Shown here piece after piece: positions 898 to 6,738 of a stretch of 64,000 bases of DNA. The notes beneath the pieces are model-generated. The model saw nothing but the letters and a program-made list of their open reading frames with translations, was not told the origin of the DNA and did not search any database. Within the stretch, counting starts at the first letter, position 1. The number at the start of each line of letters is the position of its first letter. The stretch covers positions 1,337,001 to 1,401,000 of the forward strand of contig NZ_APNH01000001.1 of the NCBI RefSeq assembly GCF_040361275.1, in the 5' to 3' direction. The stretch is from Salinisphaera sp. T31B1. Its GTDB lineage: Bacteria > Pseudomonadota > Gammaproteobacteria > Nevskiales > Salinisphaeraceae. Position numbers and translations under genes: made by a program.

Positions 898-1299
898 CTA
901 GCGACGCATCACGGTGCCGTCGTCGTCCAGCAGCGGGTAGCTGCCCTGTTCGTCGTGCGATTCAGGCCCGACCAGCGCTGGGGAGAAGGCACAGATCACG
1001 GTCATGCCCTTCTCGCTGGAGAGGATGTGCTGCTGGTTCTTGTCCAGCGCGTACAGCACGCCGGGCTTGAGCTCCCATTCCCCGCCTTCGGTCAGGTCCT
1101 GGATCTTGCCTTCGCCTTCGATGCACAGCACGGTTTCCTTGTGGTTCTTGTACCACATGTGGAGTTCCTTGCCGGGCTTGATGTAGGTCTCGTGCATCGA
1201 GTGGCCCATGCCGTCGGCGCGCAGCGTATAGCGGCGGCTGATCCACTTGTCGTCTTCGACGGCATCGTTTTCGGCATCTTTATGAGTACGGATGAGCAT
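898..1299 (-). CDS. ectC: L-ectoine synthase (EctC-type cupin), solitary
   Basis: This 133-residue single-domain cupin has the normal family length. EctC closes N-gamma-acetyl-diaminobutyrate into the compatible solute ectoine by eliminating water. Aligned to characterised EctC, the iron ligands are present as Glu55, Tyr83 and His91, and the substrate residues as Trp19, Arg23, Thr38, Tyr50, His53, Phe105, Glu113 and His115. The end has the typical YPLLDDD. An AAGGAGA ribosome site sits 8 bases before the ATG. It follows the decarboxylase-like gene by only 37 bases, so it is probably the third gene of one transcript. ectA and ectB are not in the window. It may use imported or cross-fed precursor, or a different amide substrate. 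Confidence 0.88.
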   Translation of the reverse strand: MLIRTHKDAENDAVEDDKWISRRYTLRADGMGHSMHETYIKPGKELHMWYKNHKETVLCIEGEGKIQDLTEGGEWELKPGVLYALDKNQQHILSSEKGMTVICAFSPALVGPESHDEQGSYPLLDDDGTVMRR

Positions 1300-1336
1300 G
1301 GCTCTATCTCCTTCGGGTGGTTAAGAAAAATTCGGG

Positions 1337-2587
1337 CTATGACCGGAGGTCGCAACGGCCGATTTCGGAACCGAACGGCCTGAAGCCGCCTTCGGTATCG
1401 AACTGGGGCGAGACATCGCGCTGGAAGATCAGGATCATGTCCGAGCCGCCGAACAGGAAGTAGCCGAACTCCTCGCCCTTGGCGACGTCGGTGTCTTCCA
1501 CGGCGGTGAGGTTGATCGAGCCGACATGCGACATGCCGACCGGCACCGCGGCCACCAGGCCGATGTCGCCGTCTTCCGATTCGGCGGTATCGAGGATCAC
1601 CACGCCGCGGGTCTGCGAGAACTCGTAGCCGGTGGTGGCATCGTCGTGCGAATTGAAGCCGCCATCGGCGAGGCTTACCTTCAGATAGGCCCGGCCGTCG
1701 ACCGCGAAGCTCTCGCGTACCCGGCCCGACACCGGCACGTGGTAGCGGTGGTAGGCCGAGGGCGGCAGGGCATAGTGCACGAAGGTGCCGCCGGCGAAGG
1801 CCTCGGCGTATTCACTGTCGCCGAGCAGTTCGGAGACGTCGCCGTATTGGTGGGTGCGCTTGACGCGGGTGCCGGGGATCTTGGAATCCTCGCCGATCGT
1901 GAACTGGCGTTGATAGCTGCAGTCGGCCGGGCAGGCGAGCACCCGGTTGTCGGTACGGGATGCGATCGGGCGCAGGCCGGCGTTGAGTTCGCGGGCGAAG
2001 AACTGATTGAAGGTCAGCCAGCCGCTCGGCTGATTCGGCTTGCCGTCGATCAGCGATTCCTCGATCCGGTACTGCGGCGCGTTCTTGATGAACGTTTCCA
2101 GGATCTCTTCGGAGAAGGAATCGGTGGTGTTCAGGAATGTGCCCCAGTCGCGGGCGCATTCGAGCAGCCAATCGCGGAACCAGTCGACGTTCTCGATCAC
2201 GGCGTCCTGCTGGTCGCCGACATCCTGATCGATCAGCCAGAAGAAATGACAGAGGCGGTCGAAGACTTCCTGTTCGTACTGGTCGCGCTCGCCGAGCTTC
2301 TTCCAGGCCTCGTTCTGTCCCTGATAGGGCACCCAGCGCAGAAAGCCGGCGACGTATTCGGTGTAGGCCTCGAAATCCTCGGGCCAGCGCAGCGCGTCGA
2401 ACAGAATATCGTCGAGCGCGTCGGCCGCGCGGCTGCGCGCCTTGCGCAGCGACTCTTCGAGCAGTTCGACGAAGTTCTGATCGTCACGCTCGACGTAGTC
2501 GCGCAGATCGCGAATCACGCGGTCGGTATCCGGCTCGGCCCGGGTCTGGCCGCGATCGGGCGCTTCCGGTTTGTCGTTTGCTGCCAT
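1337..2587 (-). CDS. Phosphatidylserine-decarboxylase-like pyruvoyl enzyme
   Basis: This 416-residue soluble protein has no membrane segment or signal peptide. The C-terminal half carries PSD features: YHRYHVPVSG with the conserved His, VGMSHVGSI, and the self-cleavage motif FGGSDMILIF near residues 379-388, where Ser382 would become the pyruvoyl group. The N-terminal 180 residues are an extension like that of the PSD-related and PsiD-type (tryptophan decarboxylase) branch, so the substrate may be an amino acid rather than a phospholipid. Its ATG overlaps the amidase stop (TGATG), which implies translational coupling, and ectC follows. The reading frame stays open far upstream through the amidase gene, but that part is a shadow. 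Confidence 0.75.
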   Translation of the reverse strand: MAANDKPEAPDRGQTRAEPDTDRVIRDLRDYVERDDQNFVELLEESLRKARSRAADALDDILFDALRWPEDFEAYTEYVAGFLRWVPYQGQNEAWKKLGERDQYEQEVFDRLCHFFWLIDQDVGDQQDAVIENVDWFRDWLLECARDWGTFLNTTDSFSEEILETFIKNAPQYRIEESLIDGKPNQPSGWLTFNQFFARELNAGLRPIASRTDNRVLACPADCSYQRQFTIGEDSKIPGTRVKRTHQYGDVSELLGDSEYAEAFAGGTFVHYALPPSAYHRYHVPVSGRVRESFAVDGRAYLKVSLADGGFNSHDDATTGYEFSQTRGVVILDTAESEDGDIGLVAAVPVGMSHVGSINLTAVEDTDVAKGEEFGYFLFGGSDMILIFQRDVSPQFDTEGGFRPFGSEIGRCDLRS

Positions 2588-4029
2588 CACCGGCCTCCCG
2601 ACGGCGCGCTTTCGTTGGGCACGTCCGGATAGCGCGGCGGGTACGCGTCCATATAGGCCCGGCAGGCGGACATGATGCGCGTGTCCTGATAGCGCTCGGC
2701 GGTGAGCTGGAAGCCGATCGGCAGCCCGTTGTCGGTGAAGCCGCAGGGCACGGAGGCGCCCGGCTGGCCGGTCAGGTTGAACGGGTAGGAGAAGTTGGCC
2801 CACTCCTGCCAGTCGTGCATGTCCGAATCCGGCGGCACCTGATGATTCACCGCGAAGGCTTCCAGCGGCAGCGTCGGCGTCAGCAGCAGGTCGTAGTCCT
2901 GGAAGAAGCGCGCCATATGCGCGCCGAGACGTACGCGGCCGTCCATGGCCTGGAACAGATCGGTGGAGGCCCAGTCCTCGGCGCGCTCGGCGTTCTCCGC
3001 CAGGCCAGGGTCGAGCATCTCGCGCTGGTCCTCGTCGATGTTTTCCCAGATCACGCGGGCGCCGGTGAACCAGATCTTGCGATAGATATCGATCGGCTCC
3101 TCGATGCCGGGATCGGCCTCGACGATCTCGGCGCCCAGGGCTTCCAGGCGCTCGGCGACCTGGTCGACCGCCTTCGCGATCTGCGGGTCGACGTTGGCAA
3201 AGCCCAGCGTGCGCGAATAGGCGATGCGCAGGCCGGCGACGGACGGCTCGATGTCCGCGCCCCAGTCCTCGGGCTGGCCGCCGCGGGCATAGACATCGTC
3301 CGGGTGATAGCGCCCGATCTGATTGAGCATCAGCGCGGCATCGCGCGGGTCGCGCGTCAGCGGGCCGATGCTCGCGAGCATGGCCGACTTGGACGGCGGC
3401 CACTGCGGCGTCCAGCCGAAGGTCGGCTTGAAGCCGAACACGCCGGTGAAGCCGGCCGGAATCCGGATCGAGCCGCCGGAATCGCTGCCCTGATGCAGCA
3501 CGCCCATGTTGAGCGCGGCCGCAGAAGCCGCACCGCCGGACGAGCCGCCGGACGTCTTCGACGTATCCCAGGCGTTGCCGGTGGCGCCGAACACGCGATT
3601 GTCGGTGACGCCTTTCCAGCCGAATTCCGGGGTATTGGTCTTGCCCAGAATCACGGCGCCAGCACGGCGCATGAAATCCGCCGGCGGCGAGTCGTAGTCG
3701 CAGATCTCGTCGCTGGTGGTCAACGAACCGGCACGGGCCGGCATGCCTTTGACTTCGGCCAGATCCTTGATCGAGCAGGGGATGCCGTCGACCGGCGACA
3801 GCGGTTCGCCGCGCGCCCAGCGTTCGGCCGATTCACGGGCCGCGGCGAGCGCGCCTTCGTGATCGACGTGGCAATAGGCGTTGACGGCGTCATTGAAGCG
3901 ATCGATCCGGTCGAGCGCGGCCTGGGTGGCGTCCACCGGGCTGGCCTCGCCGGATTCGTACAGCGTGCGCAGCTCGTGCGCGCTCAGCCGGCCGAGATCC
4001 TCGCTCTTCGGCGCAGTGGTTGCAGACAT
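2587..4029 (-). CDS. Amidase signature family hydrolase
   Basis: This 480-residue amidase has the complete Ser-cisSer-Lys triad: Lys88 in CSIKDL, Ser163 in GGSSGG and Ser187 in GSDSGGSIR, with the usual 24-residue gap between the two serines. It lacks a signal peptide, so it should hydrolyse an amide in the cytoplasm. The chosen ATG has a GAGGAGG site 8 bases upstream; an in-frame extension to 4143 has no such site. It is the first gene of the amidase, decarboxylase, ectC group, and its stop overlaps the next start. Amide or aryl-acylamide substrates are typical of the family; the sequence does not fix one. Confidence 0.85.
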   Translation of the reverse strand: MSATTAPKSEDLGRLSAHELRTLYESGEASPVDATQAALDRIDRFNDAVNAYCHVDHEGALAAARESAERWARGEPLSPVDGIPCSIKDLAEVKGMPARAGSLTTSDEICDYDSPPADFMRRAGAVILGKTNTPEFGWKGVTDNRVFGATGNAWDTSKTSGGSSGGAASAAALNMGVLHQGSDSGGSIRIPAGFTGVFGFKPTFGWTPQWPPSKSAMLASIGPLTRDPRDAALMLNQIGRYHPDDVYARGGQPEDWGADIEPSVAGLRIAYSRTLGFANVDPQIAKAVDQVAERLEALGAEIVEADPGIEEPIDIYRKIWFTGARVIWENIDEDQREMLDPGLAENAERAEDWASTDLFQAMDGRVRLGAHMARFFQDYDLLLTPTLPLEAFAVNHQVPPDSDMHDWQEWANFSYPFNLTGQPGASVPCGFTDNGLPIGFQLTAERYQDTRIMSACRAYMDAYPPRYPDVPNESAPSGGR

Positions 4030-4104
4030 AAGTCGTGCCTCCTCGTTTCGATCGACGCCGTGGCCGGTCCCCGGGGCCACATCAAAACGTTCGGCGGTCG
4101 ATCG

Positions 4105-4122
4105 CATCGGGTCATCCCGATG
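4105..4122. repeat. Inverted repeat upstream of the amidase gene
   Basis: CATCGGG, a four-base TCAT spacer and CCCGATG form a perfect 7-bp inverted repeat about 76-93 bases before the amidase ATG. It could be an operator or a leader hairpin for the minus-strand group. No regulator gene is adjacent to suggest which. Confidence 0.4.
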
Positions 4123-4217
4123 GCAAAACAGTGCAACATGCACATACTGCGTCGCACCATGAGTATCTTCCCTTACGCGTTATCCACAGCCGTGTCGGGT
4201 ACAAGTCGCCTCAAAAA

Positions 4218-4232
4218 CGAAACGACGTTTCG
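4218..4232. promoter_or_regulatory. Perfect palindrome in the divergent promoter, candidate operator
   Basis: CGAAACG-A-CGTTTCG is a perfect 15-base palindrome 46 bases before the GST-like gene start, in the 249-base gap between two divergent genes. Its position and symmetry suit a dimeric repressor controlling one or both directions. The cognate regulator is not visible in the window. Confidence 0.45.
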
Positions 4233-4278
4233 CTGTGGCACAGTAGCGCGGCAGAATAACCGCCCGAGGAGATGCCCG

Positions 4279-5412
4279 ATGTCCGATCCCGTCACCCCCC
4301 TGCTGCTCTACGGGGCGCCCCACTCGCTGTACACGGGCAAGGCCCGCTGTTATCTGCGCAATCAGGGCATTGCCTATGTCGAGCGGCCGACGTCGCACCC
4401 GGATTTCGTGGCGCGTATCGCGCCGAAGCTGGGCCGCGCGATCATCCCCGTGATCGAAACGCCGGACGGCGAGATCATTCAGGACACGATCGATATCATC
4501 GATCATTTCGAACGCGCCGGATCGGCCTGGCCGGTCTATCCGGAAACGCCGTTGCAGCGCGTGCTCGCGATCGTCATCGAGTATTTCGGCGGTCAGGCGA
4601 TGCGCAAGCACGCCATGCACTATCGCTGGTCGTATCTCGAGCAGCAGCGTGATTTTCTCTGGCACGCCTTCGTCAGCGGCTCGGGCGAGGCCATCGCGGA
4701 AAAAGTCATGGGGCGGATGAATTCCTACCTGCCCATGCTCGGGGTCACCGACGAAACGGTGGCCCTGATCGAGCGCTCGTTCGAAACCCTGCTGGATACG
4801 CTCGATGCCCACTTCGCGGTCATGCCGTATCTGCTGGGCGGGCGGCCGTCGATCGCGGACTACGGGCTGATCGCACCGCTGTTTGCACATCTCGGGCGCG
4901 ATCCGGTGCCGGCGAACCTGATGAAGACCCGGGCGCCACGGGTTTTTCGATGGGTGGAGCGCATGACGGCGCCGGGCCTGGATACGGTCGACTATCCGGA
5001 CGTCGAGCCGGCCTTCGTCGCGGACGACGCGATTCCGCCTTCGCTGGAACCGTTCCTGGCGTATATCGCCGAGGACATGTTTCCGGAGCTCGACGACAAG
5101 TTGGCCTTCTTCGACGCCTTGATCGCCGAGCAGCGTCCGGACGACGGCGCACCGGTGGCCGACCGGCCGCATCGGCGTCAGCTCGGCGCGGTGAACACGC
5201 ACTATCGCGGCGTGCCGATCGAGGTCGGCGCCGAGCCGTATCTGTTGTACGTGCTCCAGCGTGCGGTCGATACGGTGCAATCGCTGGACAGCGCCGAAGC
5301 CCGGCGCGTCATGGACGCCCTCGCTCGTGTCGGCCTGGAACGCGCCGTCCCGCTCGGCCGCGATTACCGCGTGGCCCGCGAAAACAATATCGAGGTCTGG
5401 CGCTTCGACTAG
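4279..5412 (+). CDS. Glutathione S-transferase-like protein
   Basis: This 377-residue protein opens with a thioredoxin-like GST N-domain (LLLYGAPHSLYTGKARCYL, then IPVIETPDGEIIQDTIDIIDHFE). A helical C-domain has LLGGRPSIADYGLIAPLFAHL near residues 190-210. It is well over 100 residues longer than ordinary GSTs, with an extra C-terminal segment of unknown role. GAGGAGA precedes the ATG by 7 bases. It is transcribed away from the amidase/decarboxylase/ectC group and toward the M24-fold gene 126 bases downstream. It may act as a glutathione-dependent isomerase or transferase in the same pathway, but nothing in the sequence shows its substrate. Confidence 0.72.
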   Translation: MSDPVTPLLLYGAPHSLYTGKARCYLRNQGIAYVERPTSHPDFVARIAPKLGRAIIPVIETPDGEIIQDTIDIIDHFERAGSAWPVYPETPLQRVLAIVIEYFGGQAMRKHAMHYRWSYLEQQRDFLWHAFVSGSGEAIAEKVMGRMNSYLPMLGVTDETVALIERSFETLLDTLDAHFAVMPYLLGGRPSIADYGLIAPLFAHLGRDPVPANLMKTRAPRVFRWVERMTAPGLDTVDYPDVEPAFVADDAIPPSLEPFLAYIAEDMFPELDDKLAFFDALIAEQRPDDGAPVADRPHRRQLGAVNTHYRGVPIEVGAEPYLLYVLQRAVDTVQSLDSAEARRVMDALARVGLERAVPLGRDYRVARENNIEVWRFD

Positions 5413-5538
5413 GCCGGTGGGTGCAGCGGCGGTTGTTTGCGTTGTCTACAGCCGCCGATCGCTTGGGCGTGCTCGATACCGTTCGCGCTGCGGCGCCGGC
5501 ATCGATACGCTGTCCGCCAGGGGTCAGACGAGGCGGTT

Positions 5539-6738
5539 ATGGATTACGCAGACTATCGGGCGCGGTTGATACAGGCGATCGACCGGCCGGAGCTGGCATT
5601 CGACACGAGCGAATACGACGCGCGTCTGAGCCGGGTTCGTGCGGCAATGGCGAGTGCGCGCCTCGATCTGCTCGTGCTCACCGAGCCCGGCGATCTGTGC
5701 TATCTCACCGGCTATCGGACATTCGAGGTCTCGGTGCAGTGCGCGCTGCTGGTTTCCGACACGGCCACGGTGCTGTTCGTGCCGGCGATCGAAATCGGCC
5801 CGGCGGTCTATCTGAGCCGGGTCGACGAGGTGGTCGGCTACGCATGGGAATCGCCGGTGGCGATGGCACGCAATCTCAGCGCACAGATGCGACGCCTGGG
5901 CGGCCATGCGGACAGTCGCGTCGGGGCCGGGCTGTGGAGCGGCTCGCTGCGCCCCGGGCTGCTGGCCGCTCTGCAGAAAGCCGGGCCCGTGCACGAATTC
6001 ATCGATATCGGTGATCTGGTCGAGAACGTGCGGCTGGTTAAATCGGCCCCGGAACTGGCTTATCTGGACGAGAGCGCGGCGATCACCGCGACCGGCCTTG
6101 ATGCCGCGGCCCGGGTGATCGATGCGGGCGTGATCGATCACGAAATCGCCAGCGCCGGCGCGGCGGCCATGCTCTCGGCAGGCTCGGAATTCATGAGCAT
6201 GCAGCCGATCGTGACGACCGGTCGGCGCAGCGGCATTATTCATACCAACCACGACGGTCATCGCATCGCCCGCGGCGACGTGGTGTTCACCGAATTCGGC
6301 GCCGTCCGACGTCGCTACACGGCGCCGTTGATGCGTACGGCCGTGGTCGGTACGGCCAGCGCCGAGATCCGTCGTTTTCACGAGGTCTGTCTGGCCGTGC
6401 TGGCCGCGGTCATGGATGCTGCGCGTGTCGGTGCCACGTTCGATGCTGCGGCCCGCGCCGGCGAACAGGCACTGGCGCCGATCGCGGCCGATGCCTTCTT
6501 CTCCGGCGTGTACGGCTATCCGGTCGGAATCCAGTTTCCACCCTCCTGGGTGGCGGGGTCGGCGTTCATCGCGCGCGGCAACGAGCGGCTGTTCGAACCG
6601 GATATGGTCTTCCACCTGCCGATCTGCCTGCGCAAGCCCGCGGCGTTCGGCGTCGGTTTCAGCGAAACCGTGCGGATTACCGATCATGGTGCGGTGCCCA
6701 TCACCCGCAACGATCTGACGCTGGCCGAAATCGGGTGA
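5539..6738 (+). CDS. M24-fold hydrolase resembling ectoine hydrolase DoeA
   Basis: This 399-residue protein (the length of Halomonas DoeA) has an N-terminal creatinase-like domain (YDARLSRVRAAMASARLDLL, PGDLCYLTGY) and a C-terminal pita-bread domain. The metal ligands of ordinary M24 peptidases are replaced: the D-D pair reads TEFG and RRRYTAPLMRT, and the GHGIG histidine segment reads YGYPVGIQFPPSW. Ectoine hydrolase has these same replacements (RRYHAPLSRT, GYPIGLSYPPDW). DoeA opens the ectoine ring to N-acetyl-diaminobutyrate. GAGG lies 5 bases before the ATG. It probably opens ectoine or a related cyclic amidine, but the doeB deacetylase partner is absent from the window. Confidence 0.68.
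   Translation: MDYADYRARLIQAIDRPELAFDTSEYDARLSRVRAAMASARLDLLVLTEPGDLCYLTGYRTFEVSVQCALLVSDTATVLFVPAIEIGPAVYLSRVDEVVGYAWESPVAMARNLSAQMRRLGGHADSRVGAGLWSGSLRPGLLAALQKAGPVHEFIDIGDLVENVRLVKSAPELAYLDESAAITATGLDAAARVIDAGVIDHEIASAGAAAMLSAGSEFMSMQPIVTTGRRSGIIHTNHDGHRIARGDVVFTEFGAVRRRYTAPLMRTAVVGTASAEIRRFHEVCLAVLAAVMDAARVGATFDAAARAGEQALAPIAADAFFSGVYGYPVGIQFPPSWVAGSAFIARGNERLFEPDMVFHLPICLRKPAAFGVGFSETVRITDHGAVPITRNDLTLAEIG

Follow-up and report, generated by a model that had tools for sequence, protein, structure and literature searches.

In a 64,000-nucleotide stretch of the Salinisphaera sp. T31B1 genome (contig NZ_APNH01000001.1, positions 1,337,001 to 1,401,000; hereafter the window), three closely spaced minus-strand genes encode an amidase, a pyruvoyl decarboxylase related to phosphatidylserine decarboxylase (PSD) and a member of the ectoine synthase (EctC) family that we call EctC2. 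EctC2 is a distinct EctC clade, accompanied by a separate ectABC-type locus in each genome checked, and its association with an amidase is supported as conserved well beyond the genus Salinisphaera. The best reading of the trio is an accessory variant of a two-gene module, amidase and EctC2, that is widespread. We tentatively propose that EctC2 and the amidase may work as a pair that opens the ring of ectoine or a close cyclic amidine and then deacylates the product, with the PSD-like decarboxylase acting on the freed diamino acid. The protein families, the retained active site, the gene order with its conservation and the presence of ectABC in the same genomes are established at the sequence level; from these we infer the direction, the substrate and the decarboxylase step.

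We scanned 84,980 species genomes, a set that may not include the window's own, with eight window-type EctC queries. This yielded 39 loci, 29 at 73-98% identity, which constitute EctC2, and 10 near 50%. EctC2 hosts were Salinisphaera, Halomonas, Modicisalibacter, Alloalcanivorax, Marinimicrobium, Roseivivax, Tranquillimonas, Henriciella and one Halomonadaceae bacterium. Two further EctC2 records, labelled Lysobacterales and Endozoicomonas, match Salinisphaera genus mates: the loci of Endozoicomonas sp. G2_2 (L167) and Lysobacterales bacterium SP48 (L158) are those of genomes G008 and G010, and the record titles look wrong. In a tree that included 29 non-identical EctC2 sequences, two of them from the window's genome and the other 27 from the scan, these formed a single clade (support 100/99), sister to the EctC of genome G015 (100/98); the bootstrap had not converged completely, and the program flagged G015 as a long branch. 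The G015 EctC gene overlaps an amidase gene whose product is 58% identical to the window amidase.

An amidase gene lies upstream of EctC2 at 19 of the 29 scan loci, across seven named genera of Gamma- and Alphaproteobacteria with otherwise varying neighbours, and a PSD-like gene sits between the two at two of these 19. A glutamate-synthase-like gene, whose product scores above no curated cut-off, occurs upstream at seven loci, three of them with a thiamine pyrophosphate (TPP) enzyme (PRK08273) between it and EctC2; the TPP enzyme is found at four loci in total. No locus holds both an amidase and a glutamate-synthase-like gene, and three hold neither, one of these with a glutamate-synthase-like remnant. 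Gaps between EctC2 and the upstream gene range from -4 to 171 bases, with 449 at the remnant locus and two loci lacking a called upstream gene. Neither ectA nor ectB was found within about 1.7 kb of EctC2 at any of the 29 loci. Within the same 1.7 kb, none of 65 ectAB-linked ectC genes had an amidase, a control that is biased because ectB usually occupies the upstream slot. Genus mates also carry an amidase paralogue (62-66% identical) away from EctC. A glutaminyl cyclase, an amidoligase and a C26 peptidase near the glutamate-synthase-locus EctC2 of Salinisphaera were considered as partners and set aside, as they recur only in Salinisphaera-type loci. Two arrangements of the glutamate-synthase-like type are worth recording. 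In Marinimicrobium agarilyticum (L178:3455-8619), this gene, the TPP enzyme, EctC2 and an aminotransferase-like open reading frame (ORF) that overlaps the EctC2 end stand in a row, and in two Halomonas records (L160:5307-7402, L161:5307-7402) the glutamate-synthase-like gene, which here takes the place of the amidase as partner, runs 4 bases into EctC2.

The window's host genome (4.36 Mb, nine contigs) carries three ectC genes. One belongs to a complete ectA-ectB-ectC cluster on contig C4 (L004 7809-10137), with all three members above NCBIfam cut-offs, so an initial reading of the window from its sequence alone, which had ectA and ectB absent, was right about the locus and wrong about the genome. 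A lone copy on contig C1 is 98% identical to the window EctC2 and is situated behind a glutamate-synthase-like gene; the match between these two copies is confined to the coding sequences, and their flanks differ. Across the genus, an ectB-linked ectC is present in all 14 genomes and a window-type EctC (79-100% identity) also in 10 of them. Beyond the Salinisphaera set, each of the 20 EctC2 genomes searched has a second ectC, adjacent to ectB (19) or ectA (1). No DoeB above the cut-off was found elsewhere in the window's genome (best match 89 bits against a TIGR02994 cut-off of 402.7). Apart from the window's own M24 gene, a search of this genome for DoeA returned just a 30% partial M24 match and a decayed copy at 50% identity to the window gene, with five in-frame stops (L033, G000:C1:1072312-1073450). 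DoeB scored above the cut-off in 12 of 37 genomes examined and in none of 17 Salinisphaeraceae; the metagenome-assembled genome with L161 has two partial DoeB matches under the cut-off.

EctC2 and the EctC of ectABC clusters are alike in family, iron ligands and substrate residues, but are 42% identical in this genome, and EctC2 is unlinked to ectAB and bears clade-specific changes (positions 26, 27, 35, 78, 90, 95, 96 and 111). With residues numbered after the P. lautus EctC, as given in the accessible sections of PMC6344544, the iron- and substrate-binding Glu-57, Tyr-84, His-92, Arg-25, Thr-40, Tyr-52, Ser-23 and Phe-106 are retained in all 29 EctC2 sequences, and position 38 is His in all 29, as it is in 57 of the 63 canonical rows. 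At position 21, 22 EctC2 sequences (and 3 of 63 canonical rows) have Phe in place of Trp, and seven, including that of the window, have Trp. This conservation points to a predicted substrate that is an amide-bearing alpha-amino acid, or the corresponding ring. Because the iron and substrate residues of known EctC are kept, there is no need to assume a very different ring; of the earlier suggestion of a pathway for a different cyclic amidine, a ring-making or ring-breaking job outside ectABC survives as a good reading. A route in which the decarboxylase feeds EctC2 is disfavoured, because the residues that grip the alpha-amino acid are retained.

The initial reading had also joined the trio to a divergent glutathione S-transferase (GST) gene and an M24 gene, as one pathway around a new cyclic amidine. 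All five genes are adjacent in this one genome. GST matches at E 1e-25 occur in 8 of 17 Salinisphaeraceae genomes (seven at 78-100% identity and G007 at 44%) and M24 matches in four of the 17; in the three other genomes holding both, the genes lie ~10-19 kb apart, and in the three stretches fetched (L153, L154, L156) no EctC, PSD or trio-type amidase gene adjoins them. The two other trio loci (G005 and G013) have no GST or M24 gene, and in G004 the GST, MetY-type and rhodanese-family genes match the window in one region without the trio. Since GST and M24 genes are found elsewhere without the trio, and other trio loci lack them, the unit is the trio; the GST and M24 genes are unrelated neighbours, and a single five-gene pathway is largely refuted and very improbable. 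The five-gene neighbourhood was found in no other genome, whereas the trio is present in 3 of 14 genus genomes and the amidase–EctC pair recurs at the loci described above. Calling the M24 protein DoeA-like was likewise an overstatement: DoeA models are its nearest, yet it scores 162.5 bits against a cut-off of 575 (NF038259) and 124.8 against 613 (TIGR02993).

Within the trio, the PSD-like decarboxylase is a local addition to the amidase–EctC2 module, present in three Salinisphaera genomes. The PSD-like gene (69-74% identical) was detected in 3 of 61 genomes searched, its own included, all three among the 14 genus genomes. At E 1e-40, matches to the family came from three of the 369 class genomes searched (the window's own, G013 and G226) and, at phylum level, from three of 398 genomes (again its own, with G453 and G572); no EctC or amidase gene stands beside the G226 match (L039). 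The gene caller, trained on the window's GC-rich genome, left the PSD gene uncalled in L040 and L041. EctC is by far the most constrained of the trio genes between the window and G005, with a non-synonymous divergence (dN) of 0.006 at a synonymous divergence (dS) of 0.71, compared with 0.19 at 0.62 for PSD and 0.13 at 0.70 for the amidase. Genome G010 lacks the stretch that in G013 spans the first amidase bases to the last PSD codons.

A parallel arrangement was observed on plasmids. A tblastn search found EctC relatives on 119 plasmid records, of which we opened 17 (two without annotation in the stretch), together with one more record picked for a DNA match to an amidase–EctC pair. An amidase lies directly upstream of an orphan ectC in four of these 18 plasmid-type records, a figure that is no rate, as this extra record and H24, picked for its listed amidase, were not chosen blindly. 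Rhizobium sp. WYJ-E13 and R. bangladeshense share the order ehuB-ehuC-ehuD-ehuA-amidase-ectC with a divergent MocR-type gene, which puts the pair right after the genes of an ectoine-type importer and resembles ehu–eut clusters. In Burkholderia multivorans the amidase-ectC pair follows amino-acid ABC transporter genes (our own gene calls), and in Caballeronia zhejiangensis it follows an ABC substrate-binding protein; in Pararhizobium A13 a weak amidase match lies on the downstream side of ectC. EhuB, EhuC and EhuD of R. bangladeshense score above equivalog cut-offs, with EhuA and the EhuR-like regulator short of theirs, and EhuB, the sole Ehu protein scanned in WYJ-E13, is also above. No M24 or DoeA-like match was found in the Rhizobium importer-amidase-ectC stretches. 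The Rhizobium amidases are of another subfamily (26-27% identical to the window amidase), and the EctC proteins beside them form a clade other than EctC2 (99/98, with one amidase-less orphan). The remaining opened records show ectAB-linked clusters, or contexts of nonribosomal peptide synthetase, acyl carrier or ATP-grasp genes.

In the EctC reaction, an amide carbonyl condenses with an amine, releasing water and leaving a cyclic amidine; run in reverse, the reaction gives an amide that an amidase can cleave. In the scheme we propose, EctC2 would run mainly in the hydrolytic direction, its iron-cupin site hydrating ectoine or a closely similar cyclic amidine and yielding an N-acyl-2,4-diamino acid (N-gamma-acetyl-2,4-diaminobutyrate, N-gamma-acetyl-DABA, in the case of ectoine). 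The acyl group would then be taken off by the amidase. In the weakest step, the freed diamino acid might lose its carboxyl group through the PSD-like pyruvoyl decarboxylase (giving 1,3-diaminopropane from DABA), although the substrate of this enzyme is a guess. The recurrent amidase link, which extends to G015, the retained residues for an amide-bearing alpha-amino acid, and a host genome with no DoeA of its own and no DoeB above the cut-off lend ring opening enough support to be plausible, if short of probable. The rhizobial importer-amidase-EctC operons favour catabolism, and by analogy ring opening is preferred for EctC2. The accessible parts of PMC4795551 report minor hydrolysis of ectoine and its derivatives by EctC, and those of PMC3187862 report that Halorhodospira crude extracts did run the EctC reverse reaction. 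The latter also state that DoeB does not accept N-gamma-acetyl-DABA; a gamma-isomer amidase would therefore supply a missing activity and could complement DoeA/DoeB where both exist. The two proposed steps, ring opening and then deacylation, are those of DoeA/DoeB (EutD/EutE), but those enzymes are of M24 and AstE type, whereas EctC2 and the amidase are an unrelated cupin and amidase, and the gamma rather than the alpha acetyl isomer would be expected. We consider it possible, with some reserve, that EctC-type cupins and amidases constitute an undescribed DoeA/DoeB-independent route that turns over ectoine or a close analogue via an N-gamma-acyl diamino acid, extended to a diamine by the pyruvoyl decarboxylase in Salinisphaera.

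Several observations weigh against ring opening. DoeB is already present in 12 of the 20 EctC2 genomes from outside Salinisphaera, and since EctC2 genomes also make ectoine, a hydrolase would cycle against EctABC. PMC3187862 reports that EctC purified from H. elongata could not run the reverse reaction. No importer was observed at the EctC2 loci themselves, and because the rhizobial EctC falls in a different clade, the analogy to EctC2 is indirect. In G010, EctC2 is intact with the same upstream sequence as in G013, and was kept after loss of the adjoining amidase and PSD genes. The glutamate-synthase-like and TPP partners are left unexplained.

The persistence of EctC2 without an amidase in G010 and other Salinisphaera would suit a second ectoine synthase, an isozyme with perhaps another salt or temperature optimum whose amidase neighbours serve otherwise. 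The retained active-site residues, the EctC family cut-offs passed and the substrate made via ectAB in each EctC2 genome checked agree with this, but the amidase link recurs across many genera with two amidase subfamilies, and EctC2 is never beside ectAB at its 29 loci and forms a clade of its own in which several positions carry fixed differences; we regard an isozyme as rather unlikely. Because ring opening does not account for the glutamate-synthase-like and TPP partners, we give similarly low but real credence to EctC2 forming or opening some other cyclic amidine. The matching open compound would be an alpha-amino acid that bears an amide, as with glutamine and 5-amino-3,4-dihydro-2H-pyrrole-2-carboxylate (ADPC), and the amidase or glutamate-synthase-like partner would handle the amide nitrogen. 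The mutually exclusive occurrence of these two partners (19 and 7 of 29 loci) is consistent with such a role, as are the Phe at position 21 in most EctC2 and the formation of ADPC from glutamine as a side reaction of known EctC (PMC4795551, accessible parts). However, such a solute is without direct evidence, Trp-21 is retained in the window EctC2, the glutamate-synthase-like protein exceeds no curated cut-off, and the TPP enzyme and decarboxylase are again left over.

At the locus itself (Table 1), the three minus-strand genes of the initial reading were confirmed, as were the divergent GST gene, the M24 gene beyond it and the 249-base gap between the GST and amidase genes. The amidase stop and PSD-like start overlap by one base (TGATG), and 37 bases separate the PSD-like gene from EctC2. 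The palindromes claimed for the divergent gap came down to one imperfect 13-nt inverted repeat, and a scan of the gap (4030..4278) gave no match to a sigma-70-like promoter.

Table 1 Features of the EctC2 locus in window coordinates, with supporting model scores
Feature	Position	Strand	Evidence
EctC2, ectoine-synthase-family iron cupin, 133 amino acids	898..1299	-	PF06339 154.7 bits (cut-off 27); NF009806 149.4 (cut-off 128)
PSD-like pyruvoyl decarboxylase, 416 amino acids	1337..2587	-	PF02666 124.1 bits; under every NCBIfam phosphatidylserine decarboxylase cut-off
Amidase-signature hydrolase, 480 amino acids, PRK06169 subfamily, first gene of the trio	2587..4029	-	PF01425 323.9 bits; NF004815 616.1 (cut-off 506)
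Intergenic region 5' of the trio, common to the divergent GST gene	4030..4278	.	Presumed site of the trio promoter
GST	4279-5412	+	
M24 protein	5539-6738	+	

The amidase clearly exceeds the cut-off for PRK06169 amidases, a family whose name implies no substrate. The PSD-like protein belongs to the PSD fold family (PF02666 above cut-off, self-processing serine region present), with the best equivalog phosphatidylserine decarboxylase model at 101.4 bits against a cut-off of 371. A second PSD match in the genome (contig C2), 34% identical, is the likelier housekeeping phosphatidylserine decarboxylase. The closest solved relatives in the PDB are PsiD-type L-tryptophan decarboxylases, which share the fold family and align through the GGS processing-site serine, but similarity is low (51-56 bits) and the PSD-like protein has its own N-terminal stretch. 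An AlphaFold model built from three sequences had a predicted local distance difference test (pLDDT) score of 31.8.

Other EctC contexts came to light in these searches. Four Salinisphaeraceae genomes encode a fused EctC and ATP-grasp protein, 534-561 amino acids as called (L106:7053-8735(-), L107:7032-8636(-), L114:6639-8318(-) and L115:8428-10113(+)), adjoined in three of the four by a further ATP-grasp gene, an S15-type hydrolase and an M20-like gene. The fusion could carry out amide formation and then ring closure in one protein. A Rhizobium etli plasmid (L247:7001-8678) has an unfused EctC followed by a biotin-carboxylase-family (ATP-grasp) gene, resembling a split Salinisphaera fusion, and genome G248 (L111:7767-10413) has an orphan EctC adjoining phosphotransferase-like and aminotransferase-like ORFs.

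Orphan EctC proteins are already known: the accessible parts of PMC5924519 and PMC6344544 describe them as lying outside the ectABC cluster with the catalytic core kept, in a role called not yet clear, and the former counts 11 ectoine-producer genomes with a single orphan. EctC2 likewise occurs in ectoine producers, but forms its own clade with a recurrent amidase or glutamate-synthase-like partner, which those parts do not mention; the word 'amidase' does not occur in PMC5924519. Nor is the amidase–EctC pair described in the accessible parts of PMC3187862 and PMC8719888, and PMC5320631, which treats MocR-type regulons, that of ectoine utilisation among them, contains neither 'amidase' nor 'ectC' in its main text. 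Among open-licence PMC papers, we found none on an ectoine synthase with a phosphatidylserine decarboxylase and no description of the amidase–EctC pairing, the EctC2 clade in ectoine producers or the three-gene form. The recurrent amidase partner, the clade and the three-gene form thus appear to be new, as far as open-licence papers go.

PMC6344544 and PMC5924519 acknowledge that what orphan EctC proteins do is still open, and the amidase partner, together with the rhizobial operons, gives a two-enzyme hypothesis that can be assayed. If it is true, part of the unexplained orphan EctC would gain a catabolic job, and ectC would be a weaker marker of ectoine producers. The turnover route would also be relevant to industrial ectoine strains, and would provide enzymes for cyclic amidines.

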